A stretch of DNA of 64,000 bases from Hydrogenophilales bacterium 16-61-112 (GTDB lineage: Bacteria; Pseudomonadota; Gammaproteobacteria; Burkholderiales; Thiobacillaceae), in assembly GCA_002257045.1 (NCBI GenBank), contig NCHD01000008.1, forward strand, positions 1 through 64,000, given 5' to 3'. How positions within the stretch are numbered: position 1 is the first letter of the stretch; each line of letters opens with the position of its first letter. The notes beneath the pieces were generated by a model. That model was not told where the DNA came from. It worked only from the letters and a program-made list of their open reading frames with translations, and made no database searches. Positions 51,930 to 62,230 of the stretch are shown here, piece by piece. Both the position numbers and the translations under genes were made by a program.

Positions 51930-54743
51930 TCAGAGGGGGCGACCCTCTTTATAGCAATGCGCGGTCGATCTGCCAGCCCCGATTCTGTCCGGATTCGCGC
52001 CCGTTCCCTGCAGGGTTTGAACCGGCTGGGGCCGGCCAAAGTGGTAGCCCTGCGCAAAGTCGATTCCCAGCGCGGCAACCCGCTTGAAGATGGCTTCATT
52101 TTCGACGTATTCAGCCACCGCCTGCTTGCCATAACCGTGGATCGCCTCGACCAAGGCCTTGACGAACAGCAGGTCGTCCTCGCTTTGATCTAGGGTGCGG
52201 ATGAACGAGCCGTCGATTTTGACGAAGTCCACCGGCAGATGTTTGAGGTACTGAAAGGTCGAAAATCCGACGCCGAAATCATCGAGCGCCAGCTTGCAGC
52301 CCAGCGCCTTGATGCCGCTGAGCAGGGCTTCGGCGTGCGCCAGATGGTTGAGCGCTGCGGTTTCAGTGATTTCCAGCGTCAACTGCTGCGGATCGACCTG
52401 GTGTTCCTGCAGCAGGCTGCGCAACAGGGTGGGCAGCTCGGGGTTGTCGAGGCTGCGCGCAGACAGGTTGGCGGCCAGGTGCAGCTCCGGCCAGCAGGCG
52501 ATCAGCTCGATGACATGCTGCAGCACCCAGAGGTCGATTTCACGGATCAGGCCGGAGGCTTCGGCTGCGGCGATCAGGGGCGCAGGGGGAAGCGTGCGGC
52601 CATCAGCGGTGTGGACGCGCAGCAGCGCTTCGTAGTGCGCCGGCTGCCCGGATTTCACGTCGATGATGGGCTGCAGGTAGAGCTCGAGCCGGTTGTTGTG
52701 CAGGGCATCGGTTATCAGCGCGAGCTGCTCGGTACGGTCGAGCAGGTTTTCCCGGATGCCGTCTTTGGGGTTGTAAAGGTGCCAGTTGCTGCGGCCCTTG
52801 CTGCGTGCCTGCGACAGTGCCAGGTCGGCCTGCCCCAACAGGGTCTCGGTATCCGCACCCGTGCCGTTTGCCGTCAGCGTGGTGATGCCGATGCAGGCCG
52901 TGGCGATGTGCTGGTTCTGCTCGCCCTTGCATAGCAGGCGTGCCGTTTGCAGCAGGGAGGCATCGGGCATGGGGTCGAAAAACAGGGCGAACTCATCGCC
53001 GCCGAGACGGGCCGCCAGGCGCGGCTCGGGCTTGAGTCCGCGCAGCCGCTCGGCCATGTGCTGGATCACGCTGTCTCCCGCGCTGTGGCCGGCCAGGTCG
53101 TTGATGGCCTTGAAGTCGTCGAGGTCGATCAGCAGCAGCGCGCCGCCCTGCGCGCCGAGCAGGATCTGGGTCAGCCGGCGCTGAAATCCCTGGCGGTTGT
53201 AGAGGCCGGTCAGGGTGTCGTAATCTGACAGGTAACTGGCACGCGCCTGGGCGCTTTTGAGTTCGGTCAGGTCGAGGCCGACCGACAGGATGAGCGGATC
53301 GTTGCCGCTGGCCTGGCCGATCAGCGAATGCACCCAGGTAATGTTGCGCAGGCCACTTGCGGTGACCAGCGGCGCTTCGAACCGAAGCGGCGCCGGGTCG
53401 CGCGTGAAATGGGTGAGCAGACGCGCGCGCCATTCCTGCCGCTCCTGCTGGGCGACCATGAGTTCGAAGTAGTCTTGGCCGATGAGCTGGTTTTCCGTCA
53501 GGCCGGTGAGGCTTTCGCAGTAGTGGTTGGCCATGCGGATCACGCCGCGCTGATCCTGGGTCAGGATCAGCGCCTGGGCGGTGTCGAGCAGCCCGCTGAT
53601 GAAGTCGCGCTCATGCGACAGGGTGTCCACCAGCTTGCCGAGGTCGTTTTGTTGGTCGCGCGTCGCAGTGTCGAGTGTTTCGAGCTGGCCGGCCAGCGCG
53701 AGCGCGGCGTCTTTCAGGACGGAGATTTCGTCGCGTGGCGCTTTGTCCGGGATCCGCAGGTGTTGCCGGACCTGCTGCCAGTTACCCTGGCCGAGCAGGG
53801 GCAGGCAGGAGCTGACCCGGTTCATGCGCCGCATGAACCAGATGAGCGCCAGCAGCAGCATGAGTTCGGCCAGCACAAAAACGCCGAGCCCGGTGATCAG
53901 ATTGCTCAGGAACACGCGTTTGATCGCCCGCTCGTCGGCGGTGACATCCTTGCGCGCGACGAACAGCGGCGTATTGGGCGCGGCAGGCAGCGGCCACAGC
54001 TTTTGCCATTCATAGGTCTTGTTGTCGTGGTGGCTGAGCGCGGATTCGATGCGCGCAAGCTGCGGATAGGGGGTGAAATTAATCGTGTTGAACTGCTCTT
54101 TAAGGGCGGGTGACGTGGCCGTCAGCAGGCGGGTCGCTGCTGCGTCATCGATCGCCACGGCCAGGTCGCGCCCGCTGCTTTGCTTGAATGCGCCCAGTAA
54201 GCCCGACAGGTCCATGCTCACCACGACCGCGCCGATGGTGATGCCACGATGTAACACGGGAACCATGCCGACGAACTGGCAGGTTTGAGCGCAATGCAGC
54301 ACGCTGTCGGGATGTTCTCTGGCCAGGACTTTTCCCAGCTTGACGCGAATGCGCTCGTTAGAAGCCGCCGCGCTGCCGAAGCCGATGATTAACTGCTGCT
54401 TCGCATCGTATAAACGCAGGCTCTGAAAGCCCTGGTTCAAACTGAGCTGATCCCAGTAAGGCTGCAGAAAGGACGCCGATTCCAGCCCGAGCGCATCGCT
54501 GTTTCCAATGACCAGAAAATCGGCCAGTGCCGAGCCGGCATCCAGCAATTGGCGTTCGTTCTGCTGGATCAAAAAGCGCAGCAGGGCTTGATTGCGCAGG
54601 GCGTCGTCACGCCGCGTCTGCTCGAGGGAGTAACGGAGGTTGGTGTCGTTGACCCAGGTCAGCGTGACCGTGCCGGCCGCCATGGCGAGCGTGAGCGGCA
54701 GCAGCAGCTTCCATTTCAGGCTGATGAAACGAGGATAGGCCAT
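51930..54743 (-). CDS. Membrane sensor PAS-GGDEF-EAL cyclic di-GMP protein
   Basis: This 937-residue protein has membrane helices near 10-30 and 290-315 that enclose a large periplasmic sensor (about 40-290, Cache-like by size). PAS (about 395-520), GGDEF (about 530-690, intact RLGGDEFALFF) and EAL (about 700-935, intact YEALLRVHTADGR, DDFGVGFSTFQYLKHL) follow. The ATG at 54743 is used; it lies two bases after the porin stop, so they are co-transcribed. A DsrC-like gene follows directly. The cluster suggests that a periplasmic ligand signal feeds into cyclic di-GMP turnover. Confidence 0.95.
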   Translation of the reverse strand: MAYPRFISLKWKLLLPLTLAMAAGTVTLTWVNDTNLRYSLEQTRRDDALRNQALLRFLIQQNERQLLDAGSALADFLVIGNSDALGLESASFLQPYWDQLSLNQGFQSLRLYDAKQQLIIGFGSAAASNERIRVKLGKVLAREHPDSVLHCAQTCQFVGMVPVLHRGITIGAVVVSMDLSGLLGAFKQSSGRDLAVAIDDAAATRLLTATSPALKEQFNTINFTPYPQLARIESALSHHDNKTYEWQKLWPLPAAPNTPLFVARKDVTADERAIKRVFLSNLITGLGVFVLAELMLLLALIWFMRRMNRVSSCLPLLGQGNWQQVRQHLRIPDKAPRDEISVLKDAALALAGQLETLDTATRDQQNDLGKLVDTLSHERDFISGLLDTAQALILTQDQRGVIRMANHYCESLTGLTENQLIGQDYFELMVAQQERQEWRARLLTHFTRDPAPLRFEAPLVTASGLRNITWVHSLIGQASGNDPLILSVGLDLTELKSAQARASYLSDYDTLTGLYNRQGFQRRLTQILLGAQGGALLLIDLDDFKAINDLAGHSAGDSVIQHMAERLRGLKPEPRLAARLGGDEFALFFDPMPDASLLQTARLLCKGEQNQHIATACIGITTLTANGTGADTETLLGQADLALSQARSKGRSNWHLYNPKDGIRENLLDRTEQLALITDALHNNRLELYLQPIIDVKSGQPAHYEALLRVHTADGRTLPPAPLIAAAEASGLIREIDLWVLQHVIELIACWPELHLAANLSARSLDNPELPTLLRSLLQEHQVDPQQLTLEITETAALNHLAHAEALLSGIKALGCKLALDDFGVGFSTFQYLKHLPVDFVKIDGSFIRTLDQSEDDLLFVKALVEAIHGYGKQAVAEYVENEAIFKRVAALGIDFAQGYHFGRPQPVQTLQGTGANPDRIGAGRSTAHCYKEGRPL

Positions 54744-54745
54744 GC

Positions 54746-55954
54746 TTAAAAGCGGTATGCCGCTTGCAGCAAGCCCATGTTCCAGCGCTGCTCGGTGGCA
54801 AAAATATCTGGATTGTCCTGCCCCGGTAGCCAACTGGTACCGTTGACGTGGTGGTACTCGGCACGCAGCATCAGACTGGGCGTGACATCCCAGCGCAAGC
54901 CGATCACCCAGTCGTCGGTGTACAGTAAATGTGCGGGCAAACCGGTTGCGGCCTGAAGTTGCGTGCCGGATCGGTCATCCTGGTCGCGATAGTTGACCTC
55001 ATTGCGTACGACCAGCTCCCATTCGGGATGAAAGCGCCATTCGGTCTGCAGGTAATACGTGAGTGAGTTGCGGACGCCATCAGGAAACGCTGCGCCGAAT
55101 CCGGCACGACTGTTACGTGGTTCGTTGTATTCAGCAGTGAGTGTGACGGTATCGTAGCGTTGCTGGATAGACGCGAGCACGTTGCGGACCCGTATCGAGC
55201 CGGCTGCTAGATTGTCGGCGCTAGCAGGTTCATAGTCGGCTTTGGCATCGATGTAGGTCAACATGAATGTGGTGTCGGTTGGCGTATCCCAGCGTAGGCT
55301 GGTGCTGAATGCCGAGGTGCCATTCAGCTTGCCGGGCCGAATGGCGCCCAGGAACACGCCCTCGACCGCTTCACTGTCGAAGTCGGGGCGCGCCCACCCC
55401 AGCGTGGCGTCAAGGCCACCGTACGCGTTGACCGTGCTGGCATGAAAAATCGCACCGGGTGCGGCGATCAGTACGCTGCGCGAGTGGTCCAGGTAGATCG
55501 CCTGCGGCAGCAGGATGCTGGGGCGGGTGAACGGCACGTCGCGCGTTTCGTTGTAGAGGCCGTAGGGGATCTTGACCTTGCCGAGCCTGACGCCAAGCTG
55601 GGTGGAATCGTTCTGGTAAAACCGCCAGTCTGCCTGCGCGTAATCCAGCCGCAGGCCTTCCTGGTCACTCTCACCTGCCTGACGATACAAAATCTGGCCG
55701 GATAGTTGCAAGGCGTCGAGCGGCAGCCAGAAACCCTGGAGTCCGATTTCGGTGAAATCGGTGCTGACAGCATCGCGGCTCTCACCAAAAAAGTTGTTGT
55801 TGGTGCTGCTGATCAGGGTCTGCGCGGCAAACCCCTGGATGCGGTAGCGCGGGTCTGCAAAGCTGTCGCCGAGGCTGTCGGCAGCGGCGGCCGAGGCACC
55901 CAGCAAGCCGGCCAGCACCAGGCTACTCCAGCGTGATTGTCTTGATGCCGTCAT
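54746..55954 (-). CDS. Porin-like outer membrane beta-barrel protein
   Basis: This exported 402-residue protein has a signal peptide (SSLVLAGLLGASAAAAD) and a long series of amphipathic strands ending in AAYRF, the terminal aromatic typical of barrel insertion. Strands such as TQLGVRLGKVKIPYGLYNET, NSLTYYLQTEWRFHPEWELV and DDWVIGLRWDVTPSLMLRAE resemble phosphate- or anion-selective porins. The start at 55954 overlaps the upstream PstS-like gene by 32 bases, so the two are coupled. Selectivity is unknown. Confidence 0.82.
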   Translation of the reverse strand: MTASRQSRWSSLVLAGLLGASAAAADSLGDSFADPRYRIQGFAAQTLISSTNNNFFGESRDAVSTDFTEIGLQGFWLPLDALQLSGQILYRQAGESDQEGLRLDYAQADWRFYQNDSTQLGVRLGKVKIPYGLYNETRDVPFTRPSILLPQAIYLDHSRSVLIAAPGAIFHASTVNAYGGLDATLGWARPDFDSEAVEGVFLGAIRPGKLNGTSAFSTSLRWDTPTDTTFMLTYIDAKADYEPASADNLAAGSIRVRNVLASIQQRYDTVTLTAEYNEPRNSRAGFGAAFPDGVRNSLTYYLQTEWRFHPEWELVVRNEVNYRDQDDRSGTQLQAATGLPAHLLYTDDWVIGLRWDVTPSLMLRAEYHHVNGTSWLPGQDNPDIFATEQRWNMGLLQAAYRF

Positions 55955-57534: not shown

Positions 57535-59835
57535 TCAGATACTGCTGAGTTTCTGGCGGAACAGGTTCATGAGTTTGCCGAAGGCCGATTCAGTGATGGA
57601 TTTGCGCTCGACCAGCACGGCCTCGCCCTTGCGCAGCTTATCGGCCAGACGCTGCAGGCTGATGGAGAAGCTGTTCATGCCGTCCTGGTCCGAGAACAGA
57701 TAGGTGTTCTTGACGCCGCTCACCCAGCCTAGCCGTGCCCAGCGGATGGTGCTGTCGTCATAATGGAATTCCACCCAGTCGCCCTTGTTGAGTGAGCGGG
57801 CACGCAGGCTGAACAGGTCTTCAAATTCAGGTGCGGCTGGTTCCGGCTCGGCATCGGTTACGGCGGGCGTTACCGCCACGCTGGCTTCGGCTTCGCGTTG
57901 CTGAACGGCGGCCACTTCCTCGATCCGTTCTGCCGGAGTCGCCTCGGGCAGGGGAACCGGCTGCGTGTTGGGGCGCACTGCGTTGGCATGCAGGATCACC
58001 AGCGTGGCGTAAAAGCGGTCGGCGAGCTTGGCCGGGAAGTTAATCTTGGTAGTGCCCTCGCGCAGCCGCTTCAAAAGCCCCGGCAAAATGCGGACCAGCA
58101 TGAGCCGCGCGTCCATGTCGGCCTTGGAATGCACGCTCCAGACCAGCTCGCGCATGGTTTCGACACTGCTGTTGAAGTGCGCGCCCTGCTCGCCTTCTTC
58201 GATGAAGTCCTGCATGAGCAACCGTGACCAGTCACGCCGCAGGAATTCACGCACGGCTTCCGGCACTGGCTGGCCTTGATGTCCTTCAGGCTGCTTGAGG
58301 GCCCGGTTGATGAAGTCATGGACAACAACCGGAGCGAGTTCGGCGCGTTCGGCTTGCTTGATCTGGGCGATGTCTGCCTGCAGACCGACGTCGACTGCTT
58401 CTTCCAGGTTTTCTTCGAGGAGGGTGCCCATTTCCTCCAGTTCTGCAGCAGCAGAGTCGAACACGGCAATATCCTGTTCGAAGGTGTCGAGCACCCGGCT
58501 CACGACAGCTGAAATGGCATCCAGGCGCGTGTTACCGGTTTCGTTTTCGGGCAGGTGTATGGACAGCGTGGCGATCGCATCGAGCATGCGGCGCACCGGA
58601 TGGTTCTGCTGCGAGAAGAAGTTGCGGTCCAGCATGGCCGCTTTCAAAACCGGGATTTGCAGGCGCGCGATCTGCGCTTTCAGGCGGTCGGGGATCGCCG
58701 CCTCGTCGAACACCACGTCGAACAGTATCGCAACGGCATCCACCAGCACTGCGTCGAGCGGACTCGCTGATTGCATGACAGGACTTTGCTGCAAGCTGCG
58801 CAGCACGTTGCGGATCGAGGCCGCGTCCAGCAGGGGGAGCTCGAAACTGCCACCATCAGGTAGCGGCATGGCACCGAGTTGCAGTTGGCTCAGCGAATCT
58901 AGCAGGTTGAACTGAGCGGATCCGCCCGATACGCCGCCGGTGTGGCCGCCGATTCCGCCACCTCCCGGTCCGGCATGGCCGCCTGACCCACCGGCAACGC
59001 CTCGCCCTCCGGCCAGTTGCTCAAACAGGTTGAACATCTCGCCACCGGTCGACGATTGCGCCGCGGCAGTTCCCGTTACCGACGGAGCGCGTCCTGACGG
59101 GCTCTGGGCGCGGCTCTGGCTGCCGACCTTGAGGTCGGGCAGCACGCCGTGATTGACCAGGTAGCGGTTGATGGACTGGTAAATGCCGGCGAGCTCGGTG
59201 GTGAGCACCAGATTGAACTGGTTCAACAAGACGATCTGGATGTTTTGCGCCACGTCCATGCGGGCGATGCCGTCCAGCAGCGCTTCGCACAACGCGCGCG
59301 GGCCGAGCGGGTTGTCGTTTTCGTTCAGACTGGGGCGCGCCATCAGATGCGCGACGCGTGCATCCAGGGCAACCAGTTCTTCGGCACAGTTGAAGCGCAG
59401 GCGCGAGGTGGCCTTGTCGACCGCCAGGGTGATTTCAAAGTCCTGATCCCCCACCAGGGCAAGCTCCGACAGATCAAAGGTAACGGGCTTTTCCCGGCCG
59501 AGGGTGAATTGGCTGAAGGTCTGGCAATACGCTTCCTTGCAGGCGCTGAGGAGTTCGTTGGCCTGCTTGTTGAGGATGCCCTGGGCGCCGAAATAGATAT
59601 TGCGGGTATCCAGCAGGGGGGCTCGGTCGGCCATTGCCAGCAGCGTACTTTCGATGCCTTCGACCTGGTGGGTGAGAGTGCGGGTCGCCCCTTCGATCAA
59701 CTGGTCGCGGCAATTATGCAGCAGGGTCAGCGTCTCGGCAGAGGCATGTGTGCCGGCGCCGCCCGTGTTGCGACGCGAACGTTCGAATTGATTGAGGTTG
59801 ACTACGACTGAGTTGTCAGGCATTTCGCGCTCCAT
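57535..59835 (-). CDS. DUF1631 family protein, riboswitch-preceded copy
   Basis: This protein of about 766 residues belongs to DUF1631, a betaproteobacterial family of unknown function. Family text includes NPLGPRALCEALLDGIARMD near residue 190, SALDAVLVDAVAILFDVVFD-like core, EEMGTLLEENLEEAVDVGLQ and a PilZ-like C-terminal barrel (LNKGDWVEFHYDDSTIRWAR, NTYLFSDQDGMNSFSISLQR). A Gly-rich linker (HAGPGGGGIGGHTGG) lies about 270-330. The PilZ-like end has no clear RxxxR, so cyclic di-GMP binding is unproven. The ATG at 59835 is about 65 bases after a GEMM-I riboswitch; in-frame ATGs lie at 59853 and 59823. Confidence 0.88.
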   Translation of the reverse strand: MEREMPDNSVVVNLNQFERSRRNTGGAGTHASAETLTLLHNCRDQLIEGATRTLTHQVEGIESTLLAMADRAPLLDTRNIYFGAQGILNKQANELLSACKEAYCQTFSQFTLGREKPVTFDLSELALVGDQDFEITLAVDKATSRLRFNCAEELVALDARVAHLMARPSLNENDNPLGPRALCEALLDGIARMDVAQNIQIVLLNQFNLVLTTELAGIYQSINRYLVNHGVLPDLKVGSQSRAQSPSGRAPSVTGTAAAQSSTGGEMFNLFEQLAGGRGVAGGSGGHAGPGGGGIGGHTGGVSGGSAQFNLLDSLSQLQLGAMPLPDGGSFELPLLDAASIRNVLRSLQQSPVMQSASPLDAVLVDAVAILFDVVFDEAAIPDRLKAQIARLQIPVLKAAMLDRNFFSQQNHPVRRMLDAIATLSIHLPENETGNTRLDAISAVVSRVLDTFEQDIAVFDSAAAELEEMGTLLEENLEEAVDVGLQADIAQIKQAERAELAPVVVHDFINRALKQPEGHQGQPVPEAVREFLRRDWSRLLMQDFIEEGEQGAHFNSSVETMRELVWSVHSKADMDARLMLVRILPGLLKRLREGTTKINFPAKLADRFYATLVILHANAVRPNTQPVPLPEATPAERIEEVAAVQQREAEASVAVTPAVTDAEPEPAAPEFEDLFSLRARSLNKGDWVEFHYDDSTIRWARLGWVSGVKNTYLFSDQDGMNSFSISLQRLADKLRKGEAVLVERKSITESAFGKLMNLFRQKLSSI

Positions 59836-59894
59836 AGGATCACCTCGCTGCATGTGCGACGTGCCAACCGGCGAACGAAGGGGGGTGGATCAAT

Positions 59895-60005
59895 CCGGAG
59901 TGTTGCCGGCAGTCCCGCTTTCTCGACCTGCCGGGGAGGTAAGGTCGAGGCCGGAAACTTTGCGTCCCCGTCTCGCGGCGGGTTTGCCCTGTTCGGTGGT
60001 CAGCG
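59895..60005 (-). promoter_or_regulatory. Cyclic di-GMP-I (GEMM-I) riboswitch
   Basis: The minus strand reads ACAGGGCAAACCCG, a GCGA (GNRA) tetraloop, CGGGGACGCAAAG, TTTCCGGCCTCGACC, then GGTCGAG and AAAGCGGGACTGCCGG. This is the GEMM-I consensus in order, including the invariant AGGGCAAACC, GGACGCAAAG and the P3 stem. P2 (CCCG/CGGG) is capped by the tetraloop, P3 pairs CTCGACC with GGTCGAG, and P1 pairs CCG..CAG with CTG..CGG. It lies between the two DUF1631 genes and ends about 60 bases before the start codon of the downstream copy, so it probably controls that gene in response to cyclic di-GMP. Confidence 0.9.
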
Positions 60006-60010
60006 GGTAA

Positions 60011-60025
60011 ACCCGAAATTCGGGT
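60011..60025. repeat. 15-base palindrome upstream of the riboswitch
   Basis: ACCCGAA, A, TTCGGGT forms a perfect 7-bp inverted repeat just upstream of the riboswitch. It may end transcription of the first DUF1631 gene or act as an operator. Confidence 0.5.
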
Positions 60026-60089
60026 ACACCATCGCATAGCTGATGTATCGGATGGCGCCGGTGAAACTTGAGCGATTTGCGCCAGAATT

Positions 60090-62156
60090 TCAGGCGGGGT
60101 CTTCCAATAGTTTGTTTTTGAGACGCAGCATGGCCTTTCGCGTAAGTGACTGCTCCGGAATACGCGCGCGTCCGGCACGGATTTCTGTCGCGAGTTGCGT
60201 GCAGTCGAGCGAAAAACGTTGCGCCTCGGTCTCGTCGCAAAAAAGCAGATAGCCGTGTACACCCACCCAGGCCACGCGTGCGGTTGTCAGGCCCTCGAAT
60301 GGCGGATCGAAATCCACCCAGTCACCTTCGAGCAATTGCCCGGCCTGTTGCAGGGTCGAGTCGTTGGGAACAGGGGGCAGCTGCCGTGCGAGCAACTCGA
60401 CCTGGTTCGGCGAAATGGACTGAGGCACAAAGGTGCTGACCACACTGACGGGCTGACTGACGTCCGGGCGTATCCAGCATTCCTGTGTGCGGGTGATGGC
60501 GCTGAAAAAGTCCTTCAACTGTCCGGAATCGGCGCCTTGTGCCAGCAGGCCGCGTCTTAGCGAGGTATTGATCGCGGGGATGGATTGCAGTCGTGCTTCC
60601 CGCTCGTCCGCTGCCGGCGCCTGCAGGCTCTGAAAAAGCTGGAGCAGGGTTGCGCAGGCCTCGCGCCATTGGGCACCTTCGCCGGACTCGGCCACATAGA
60701 GAGTCGCCATATACGGTATCCAGGCCGATTCCAGCCGGCGCAAGACTGCCTCGGGGGCGGGGAGCCGCGTGGTGAGATCGTGCAGGTTTTGCAGCGCCAG
60801 CAGGGTGCCCAGTTCCTGGCTTTCGATTTGCTGGAGCTTTTCGACTTCTGATGACAGTTGGGTTTCTGCGCGGGTGTTTTCGTCCACCAGCCAGGTGTTG
60901 AGCGCATCGAGTGCCTGGGCAATGCCTTCGGAGGGGTGAAGCGGGTCGCTTGCGGTCAGCGCACAGCTGGCTTCAATCTGTTGCAGAGCGCTGGCGTGGG
61001 CGGGATGGCCTTCGGGAAAGCGCCGCGAAAACTGGCCGAGTAGGTCGATCAGCTGGCGCGCAGGGTTCTGCTCGTCGTCAAAGAACTCGGGCGACTCAAG
61101 CGCCACGCGCAGGGTCGGCATCTGCAGCCGGGCAATCGCGGATTTATAGTGCGTAGAGACGTCCGGCTCACTCAGGATGAATTCAAACACGCCGGCGAGG
61201 GCATCAAGCACCGCGAGGTCGAAGCTTCCCGCATTGGATTGGCCAGCGCCTTGCTGAAGCTGCCGCAAAAGGAGAGCGCTTGACTTGGGCGCGGAAGGTA
61301 TCGTGCCGGTCTGGGCTTCCCAGCCTGCAAGCGTGTCGAGAAAACGTGGCAATGCAGCGGGAAAGCCATTTTCGCCCCAGGACGCGGTTTCGTTTGCGGG
61401 CGCGCTCGAATCAGTCAACGACGGGGCCGGCTTGCGCGCCGCGGCTGACTTGATGCGCGACAGGATGCCGTGGCTGGCGGCGGGTTCATTGAGCCGGCGG
61501 GTGGGCGCAGGCTGGGCACGTATGCTCGTGTGCTGTTCGATCCCCTGCTCAAGCAGAAACTGATTGAGCGCGGAGTAGGTGTGCTTCAGCGTGTCGAACA
61601 GGGGGGCCGCTGAATTTTGTATCAGCAGGGTGCCGTTCTGCGAATCGAGGCCCAGTGAGTCGAGCGCGCGAGACAAAGCATGAATGACCGGCAAGGGGCC
61701 AAATGCCTGGATTTCCCCGGGGGCGCCCAGGCTGGCTTGTATCAGGGATTGCAGACGGCCAAACACCAGCAGCAATTCGGGACGCAAGTCGTCGGTCAGA
61801 TGCGCGGCGATCTTGTCTGACGCAAGTTGTCGGCCCAGCACGTCATCATCCACCAGTTGCAGCTGCCCCGATCGGCCACGGGCCTGGTGCTCAAAGGTTT
61901 CAGGGTGCGCGAGATGCTGGCGAAACTGCTCCGCAAATGCGGAGGATAACCTGTCCGGGGAGGCTTGCAGCCAATCCAGGCAGGTTTGCCTGCTTTCCAG
62001 CATGGATGGCGTGGTCTGCGTCGCGATAGCGCGCAGAAGGGTGTCCTGGATGCGTTCCCGATTGCGCTGGAAAAAATTATCCAGTGCTTGCGCCATGCGA
62101 GTTTCTGCTTCGCTTAGCAGCGCAATGGCAATAGAGGGGTCAAGCGGAACTGACAT
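60090..62156 (-). CDS. DUF1631 family protein, upstream copy
   Basis: This 688-residue paralog of the next gene shares the DUF1631 core: FGPLPVIHALSRALDSLGLD, AVLDALAGVFEFILSEPDVS, IARLQMPTLRVALESPEFFD, NPARQLIDLLGQFSRRFPEG and the PilZ-like C terminus (LLEGDWVDFDPPFEGLTTAR, GYLLFCDETEAQRFSLDCTQ). It ends in a basic segment (SLTRKAMLRLKNKLLEDPA). The riboswitch lies downstream of it, so only the second copy appears to be riboswitch-controlled, unless read-through occurs. Function is unknown; the pair may form a complex. Confidence 0.88.
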   Translation of the reverse strand: MSVPLDPSIAIALLSEAETRMAQALDNFFQRNRERIQDTLLRAIATQTTPSMLESRQTCLDWLQASPDRLSSAFAEQFRQHLAHPETFEHQARGRSGQLQLVDDDVLGRQLASDKIAAHLTDDLRPELLLVFGRLQSLIQASLGAPGEIQAFGPLPVIHALSRALDSLGLDSQNGTLLIQNSAAPLFDTLKHTYSALNQFLLEQGIEQHTSIRAQPAPTRRLNEPAASHGILSRIKSAAARKPAPSLTDSSAPANETASWGENGFPAALPRFLDTLAGWEAQTGTIPSAPKSSALLLRQLQQGAGQSNAGSFDLAVLDALAGVFEFILSEPDVSTHYKSAIARLQMPTLRVALESPEFFDDEQNPARQLIDLLGQFSRRFPEGHPAHASALQQIEASCALTASDPLHPSEGIAQALDALNTWLVDENTRAETQLSSEVEKLQQIESQELGTLLALQNLHDLTTRLPAPEAVLRRLESAWIPYMATLYVAESGEGAQWREACATLLQLFQSLQAPAADEREARLQSIPAINTSLRRGLLAQGADSGQLKDFFSAITRTQECWIRPDVSQPVSVVSTFVPQSISPNQVELLARQLPPVPNDSTLQQAGQLLEGDWVDFDPPFEGLTTARVAWVGVHGYLLFCDETEAQRFSLDCTQLATEIRAGRARIPEQSLTRKAMLRLKNKLLEDPA

Positions 62157-62230
62157 AGCGATTAACTATCGGCCCAATGAGCGAAAAATGAATAGCTGTC
62201 GGCTGCAGAAGGGGGTGTCGGGGTGTTTTT

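Follow-up and report, generated by a model that had tools for sequence, protein, structure and literature searches.

What does a riboswitch for cyclic di-GMP (c-di-GMP) do in front of a gene for a DUF1631 protein, a member of a family to which Pfam assigns no function? The question is raised by a locus in the window (the whole stretch of DNA analyzed here, 64,000 nucleotides), for which an earlier note, made from the sequence alone, had proposed a GEMM-I element placed between two DUF1631 paralogs and, from that position, control of the downstream paralog. The locus consists of the following parts.

57535 to 59835, minus strand: DUF1631-A, 766 aa, the presumed target gene (PF07793, 554 bits)
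59836 to 59904, minus strand: spacer and presumed expression platform, recognized from the sequence, with a C-rich tract and the Shine-Dalgarno sequence GAGGTGA (59846-59840)
59905 to 59998, minus strand: c-di-GMP-I (GEMM-I) aptamer, Rfam 51.1 bits, with P2 capped by GCGA and P3 a straight helix
59999 to 60043, minus strand: predicted 5' hairpin between promoter and aptamer (RNAalifold, 47 host-genus leaders)
60045 to 60071, minus strand: sigma28 (FliA)-type promoter, matching the consensus at 14 of 16 positions, the highest count for any site in the 64-kb window
60090 to 62156, minus strand: DUF1631-B, 688 aa, the upstream paralog, which is not downstream of the riboswitch (PF07793, 240 bits)
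62166 to 62191, minus strand: weaker sigma28-like site before DUF1631-B, TCATTTTT-N10-GCCGATAG, 13 of 16 positions, about 10 nt before the ATG

To judge by sequence, the 5' untranslated region of DUF1631-A contains a genuine c-di-GMP-I riboswitch. Rfam cmscan, run on the window at curated thresholds, matches RF01051 over its full length (1-87) at 59998-59905 of the minus strand with 51.1 bits, above the gathering score of 35 (E = 4.6e-7); the sole further Rfam match in the window is a tRNA. The covariance search that the earlier note had proposed thus bears out its class assignment: the match lies inside the interval 59895-60005 that it had given, and the motifs it had quoted are all in place (AGGGCAAACC, the GNRA loop GCGA at 59976-59973, GGGACGCAAAG, and GCGGG). 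In the host genome (2.9 Mb, 206 contigs, 94% complete), no second RF01051 match was found. A covariance model of our own, made from 25 family aptamers that include some other DUF1631-A leaders, gives the window aptamer (locus L036) 59.4 bits, this aptamer being one of its 25 rows.

The numbering G20/A47/C92 is taken here to map onto the DUF1631-A aptamer sequences. The equivalents of the ligand contacts in the window aptamer, namely, the G before GC, the CGCAAA core, and AGCGG, are all intact, and all 74 DUF1631-A leaders described below retain the CGCAAA core, [AG]GCGG, and a G where position 20 would be; binding of c-di-GMP would be expected. G20, A47, and C92 are named as contact residues of the c-di-GMP-I riboswitch in PMC4744006. 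In GEMM-Ib, an A at position 20 confers selectivity for cGAMP, and an A20G variant has been described (PMC6456294); the window aptamer has G. At L019 (1501-1586, minus strand, G049:C18), the alignment shows an A at the equivalent of position 20 in a c-di-GMP-I aptamer that precedes a small, apparently exported protein. This A would predict cGAMP sensing outside Geobacter; in the other non-G rows of the same set, an earlier GC or a changed core had been picked up and not position 20.

The GNRA loop GCGA is present in the window aptamer, and a helix takes the place of the CTAA-type receptor, P3 being the straight CTCGACC/GGTCGAG where the tetraloop receptor is usual. Loop and receptor covary over the 74 leaders, with GCGA or GTGA accompanied by a helical P3 in 59 and GAAA by CTAA in 13 (the remaining two are one CAAA with CTAA and one unreadable), a covariation that tracks genera and so represents few independent events. 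Most other family aptamers retrieved have GAAA with the CTAA receptor, as against GCGA with a plain helix in the window. The link between the GAAA loop and its receptor in GEMM was reportedly described on the discovery of the motif (Weinberg, 2007).

The survey of related genomes that the earlier note had also suggested shows that the adjacency recurs. RF01051 is found in 105 of the 117 genomes of the host's family, and a DUF1631-A relative is found in 87 of them (protein search, E <= 1e-60). Scanning the regions 5' of these 87 genes with our own covariance model places an aptamer upstream of 74 of them, with scores of 54 to 101 bits: 48 of 52 loci in the host genus (genus g1) and 26 of 35 family loci outside it. 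Rfam finds RF01051 at none of the 13 loci that this model missed, of which 4 belong to the host genus and 9 to genera g7 and g8. By eye, three of the host-genus misses carry aptamer remnants (L063/G053, L069/G093, and L074/G099) and the fourth a deletion (L081/G055), and at all four the promoter, the start region, and gene A persist; these cases of natural decay or loss are useful natural mutants. In the g7/g8 set, the G018 locus is cut by a contig end, and G016, G017, G033, and G040 each carry, on a different contig, a DUF1631 gene with a riboswitch before it (L006, L015, L008, and L021, respectively), so their best protein match was another paralog.

In a named collection, the aptamer is present at 48 of the 80 best DUF1631 loci, including those of Sulfuriferula multivorans, Sulfuricella, Parasulfuritortus, "Ca. 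Accumulibacter," Methyloversatilis, and "Ca. Desulfobacillus denitrificans"; the pairing reaches Sulfuriferula, Sulfuricella, Accumulibacter, and Rhodocyclaceae. Cultured species with the aptamer at this locus include Thiobacillus thioparus, T. denitrificans RG, and Sulfuriferula multivorans. No aptamer was found at the Chromatiaceae, Chitinimonas, and Pseudomonas loci among these 80. The nearest named relatives of DUF1631-A are mostly called Thiobacillus, which indicates that the host, a sulfur-oxidizing bacterium, belongs to the Thiobacillus group. On a quick DUF1631 tree of 65 rows (33 with an aptamer, including the window A; 29 of the 32 named loci without; B; and two other copies from the host), the aptamer label changes 6 times, compared with 22.1 times in shuffles, none of 500 being as low. 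So few changes argue for an old pairing of aptamer and DUF1631-A that has been passed on mostly by inheritance. That the riboswitch controls a DUF1631 gene, which the earlier note could propose from one position, is now supported by synteny conserved across the family and the named loci.

Both neighbors of the aptamer are indeed DUF1631 genes, with scores far above the PF07793 cutoff of 33.7 bits, so the description of a riboswitch lying between two paralogs is correct as far as it goes; the placement itself is incidental, B having been found in only part of the host genus. It is found beside A at 33 of 48 riboswitch-bearing loci there and at none of 26 outside that genus, with the qualification that 5 of the 15 riboswitch-bearing loci without B have less than 1 kb of upstream sequence. 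B is also missing at all four host-genus loci with a decayed riboswitch. A dependence of the riboswitch on B was considered and rejected, because those 15 riboswitch-bearing loci lack B as well. Four DUF1631 genes were found in the host genome, with an aptamer only at A; B has none. Sigma28-like sites of 11 to 14 of 16 positions precede 7 of 9 other B genes and sites of 9 of 16 the other 2, scores that stand without a shuffle control. The two DUF1631 proteins of the window reach 147.9 and 34.3 bits with the NCBIfam model PacR (NF058594), compared with its cutoff of 1200; nothing relevant to the meaning of this name was found, to judge by titles, in the open-licence literature.

The promoter upstream of the aptamer, a feature absent from the earlier note, has the -35 element TCAAGTTT (60071-60064) and the -10 element TCCGATAC (60052-60045) with a spacer of 11, its score being counted against the sigma28 (FliA) consensus TMAAGTTT-N11-GCCGATAA-like; transcription would start near 60038. 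Sites of at least 13 of 16 positions are present in 59 of the 74 related leaders and in 1 of 1480 mononucleotide shuffles. The distance from promoter to aptamer is nearly constant, at about 72 nt in the host genus and about 51 to 61 nt in g6 to g8 and g11, and the A-type motif persists in genomes without B. The exact pattern AAGTTT-N10..12-GCCGATA has 36 matches in 56 host-genus genomes (the reversed pattern has 5), and 19 of these are the A-leader site. The other 17, of which 13 were looked at, are mixed: before a PAS protein, before a 4HB_MCP-PAS-GGDEF protein, before unrelated genes, or inside open reading frames (ORFs). A looser exact pattern matches once in the host genome, as does its reversed control. 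Among the 48 leaders of the named set (one unscorable), 28 reach 13 of 16, compared with 2 of 960 shuffles; apparently outside the host's family, the occurrence is patchy, with at least 13 of 16 in 3 of 17 named leaders, one of them unscorable.

An internal control is provided by 30 riboswitch loci, the best in each of 30 family genomes. The promoter score is at least 12 before 15 of the 16 DUF1631 riboswitch leaders and before 2 of the 14 leaders of other genes (Fisher p = 1.7e-5, only a guide given that this threshold was picked after the data had been seen and that the rows are related); at a score of at least 13, the counts are 13 of 16 and 1 of 14. The 14 other genes encode mostly exported or surface proteins, as judged from the protein starts. 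The 16 DUF1631 loci comprise 8 of the A class (6 from the 87-locus scan and 2 assigned by protein similarity) and 8 of a second class.

This second DUF1631 class is found in genera g3, g5, g7, and g11 and is likewise headed by a c-di-GMP-I riboswitch, with the aptamer at 1501-1587 of each locus, a recurrence that the earlier note also lacks. Its loci are L006, L008, L009, L011, L014, L015, L020, and L029, of which L009 and L011 are near copies, and 7 of the 8 genes were checked with Pfam. A sigma28-like site scoring at least 14 is present in 7 of the 8.

FliA control of the A leader appears likely from these patterns. FliA itself is found above the cutoff in 104 of the 117 family genomes, so a phyletic link between A and FliA, also considered, is uninformative. 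There are two flagellar systems, each with its own fliA paralog. In the host genome, the flgM gene of one system is preceded by a like site, TCAAGAAA-N11-GCCGATAG, with 12 of 16 positions; the corresponding site scores 14 of 16 in G058 and 11 of 16 in G053. The flgM gene of the other system reaches only 10 of 16 in all three genomes, and flgM in G010 and G039 reaches 11 of 16. Flagellin promoters failed as a positive control, another motif being common there: the best-scoring site in 22 of the 29 scored in the host genus is TTAACTTT...GACGATTC. In the eight fliA and flagellin stretches scanned (146 kb from three genomes), no copy of the A-type motif lies before a gene; one A-type site is separated by 3.6 kb from the ORF that follows. 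PMC3627812 reports a FliA motif, TTAAG-N16-CCGATA, from Bdellovibrio, and the A-leader promoter resembles it. FliA and bifA are treated together for Pseudomonas putida in PMC5300878.

The flagellin motif, also written TTAACTTTCTCC...GACGATTC, precedes 22 of 29 flagellin-domain genes (L238-L267; L239 is too short) and is unlike the usual sigma28 consensus, in genomes that have two FliA paralogs and two flagellar clusters. The second PF00669 match of G053 has no such site within 250 nt upstream.

In the predicted 5' hairpin between promoter and aptamer, 498 of 566 cells form standard pairs over 44 distinct rows, so that pairing survives sequence change. On the other side of the aptamer, A most likely starts at ATG 59835, which lies behind the putative Shine-Dalgarno sequence and 69 nt past the aptamer; an alternative in-frame ATG at 59853 would shorten this distance to 51 nt. 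The earlier note had given about 60 bases. No terminator-like sites, and hence no intrinsic terminator, were found in 59750-60250. Folding predicts a largely paired Shine-Dalgarno sequence, its partner in most leaders being the spacer. Enforcing the aptamer leaves its mean accessibility at 0.33, the same as without (6 leaders down, 6 up), over 46 of the 74 leaders, the others having been dropped for lack of a Shine-Dalgarno pattern match, N bases, short upstream sequence, or lack of a recognizable aptamer anchor. The sign of the switch therefore does not come out of folding, which gives no net effect over these 46, and RNAalifold of the spacer yields no trusted helix. An OFF switch is nonetheless slightly favored over an ON switch, because in four host-genus species the aptamer is dead or deleted and gene A is still there; had an ON switch been lost, the gene should have fallen silent, so its retention fits OFF slightly better.

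The suggestion of the earlier note that DUF1631 proteins have a PilZ-like end, so that c-di-GMP might act on both RNA and protein, finds no support on the protein side. An AlphaFold2 model of DUF1631-A, based on an alignment of 35 DUF1631 relatives (mean pLDDT 82, pTM 0.53), predicts a long body made of helices and, at the C terminus, a small beta barrel (about residues 673-744). The barrel is matched best by the translocation-signal domain of TraI (Z 8.7, with 66 residues aligned at rmsd 2.0) and next by Spindlin (Z 7.8), a Tudor/Spindlin-like arrangement that is a common one, and no PilZ entry is among the 50 matches listed. Foldseek finds nothing at E <= 0.001, and searching solved structures with a profile gives only three weak matches, with E of 0.13 and above. 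The PilZ motif for c-di-GMP consists of RxxxR followed by [DN]xSxxG. [DN]xSxxG is found in the last 130 residues of none of the 35 relatives, and 16 of them have an RxxxR; the window protein has neither, and Pfam reports no PilZ domain in the DUF1631 proteins examined. A C-terminal PilZ domain was set aside as unlikely on these grounds, and with the motif absent from all 35 relatives, action of c-di-GMP on the protein is left without support here.

Directly 3' of A, a gene for an HDOD protein is found at one locus each in g6, g7, and g8 and in Sulfuricella.

L127, 8354-9577: HDOD gene after DUF1631-A
L128, 8139-9452: HDOD gene after DUF1631-A
L133, 8189-9481: HDOD gene after DUF1631-A
L175, 5347-6765: HDOD gene after DUF1631-A

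Three of these four HDOD proteins have a weak EAL match, below the Pfam cutoff, and HDOD relatives follow A at 5 of 48 named loci with the riboswitch and at 0 of 32 without it. Such an HDOD/EAL neighbor again points to c-di-GMP signaling. In the window, a dCache-PAS-GGDEF-EAL protein is encoded at 51930-54833 of the minus strand, 2.7 kb past the end of DUF1631-A, with a mutY-like gene and two other ORFs between them.

The explanation that we consider probable is that a FliA-type promoter and a c-di-GMP-I riboswitch leader together tune the translation of DUF1631-A, bringing two inputs to bear on one protein. Transcription would most likely start at the sigma28-type promoter just upstream of the aptamer, so the RNA would be made mainly when the flagellar program is on. 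The aptamer would sense c-di-GMP as the RNA emerges and set the level of DUF1631-A translation through access to the Shine-Dalgarno sequence, 58 nt beyond it; the leader would thereby merge flagellar stage and c-di-GMP level. DUF1631-A itself may take part in the transition between a swimming and a sessile mode of life.

Alternatively, the aptamer could control A behind a promoter that is not FliA dependent, either because another sigma factor reads it or because the riboswitch lies inside a B-A operon. In its favor are the different flagellin promoters of the host genus, the lack of gene-linked A-type copies in the flagellar stretches scanned, and the stop codon of B, which in the window precedes the aptamer by only 91 nt. 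Against it, the promoter motif sits between B and the aptamer and persists both where B is absent and, by eye, where the aptamer has decayed; it is also like the Bdellovibrio motif (PMC3627812), and a like site precedes flgM. This competitor appears rather unlikely.

A different outcome would be that c-di-GMP controls early termination of transcription, by Rho or at a weak terminator, and not the start of translation. C-rich stretches are the kind of sequence that Rho uses, and one lies directly after the aptamer, in leaders for which folding offers no Shine-Dalgarno switch; the window leader, however, has no intrinsic terminator. Early termination is in our estimate unlikely, and Rho-dependent control is the main rival to translational control, which the anatomy of the leader makes the leading reading. 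That the window aptamer is merely a decaying remnant that no longer switches is very unlikely. Its Rfam score is indeed low for the family, in which the top score is 88.3 and the matches listed have at least 57 bits, four host-genus relatives have remnants or a deletion, and mismatches interrupt both P2 (C.A) and P3 (G.A) of the window aptamer. However, the ligand-contact positions and core are untouched, the P2 mismatch is common to 19 of the 45 distinct rows of the host genus, and the relative L037, whose A protein is 96% identical to that of the window, keeps its aptamer at 60.4 bits.

A broader and more tentative possibility is that DUF1631 represents an unrecognized motility-transition class in Betaproteobacteria, produced through a coincidence-detector leader. 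In such a detector, the flagellar sigma factor would determine when the RNA is made and the c-di-GMP riboswitch whether it is translated, an arrangement that would have arisen or been kept, within one family, on two or more classes of DUF1631. The conserved riboswitch and flagellar-type promoter before DUF1631 genes provide a strong, cheap, and testable motility hypothesis for this family, and leaders with a swapped tetraloop and receptor or with natural decay should be useful for learning how such leaders switch.

The locus thus joins a known riboswitch class to a well-conserved and apparently undescribed target family. In the open-licence literature, no description of DUF1631 paired with a c-di-GMP riboswitch and no mention of PF07793 was found, and the open-licence papers that mention the family describe, to judge by their titles, no function for it; by the same measure, the papers on GEMM riboswitches and Thiobacillus have no bearing on the pairing. 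Among known systems, the window aptamer shares the Rfam family and core with Vc1 and Vc2 of Vibrio cholerae, whose G20, A47, and C92 have equivalents here (PMC4744006). It differs from both in a P3 that lacks the usual tetraloop receptor and forms a straight helix accompanied by a GCGA loop, and from Vc1 in that Vc1 heads gbpA and the window aptamer a DUF1631 gene. The Geobacter cGAMP-sensing GEMM-Ib riboswitches have the GEMM-I architecture in common with it, with A20 (PMC6456294) in contrast to the G of all 74 DUF1631-A aptamers. In the attack phase of Bdellovibrio bacteriovorus, a FliA-like motif is found at 92 of 140 mapped promoters, and merRNA is likewise a c-di-GMP riboswitch RNA of this motile phase; it lacks a conserved ORF, and the table of the same source (PMC3627812) does not list it as FliA driven, whereas a conserved gene follows the window aptamer. 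Cd1 of Clostridioides difficile is likewise a c-di-GMP-I riboswitch tied to flagellar expression, an OFF switch according to PMC4744006; Cd1 heads a flagellar operon, whereas the window aptamer follows a sigma28-type promoter and heads a gene whose function is unknown.
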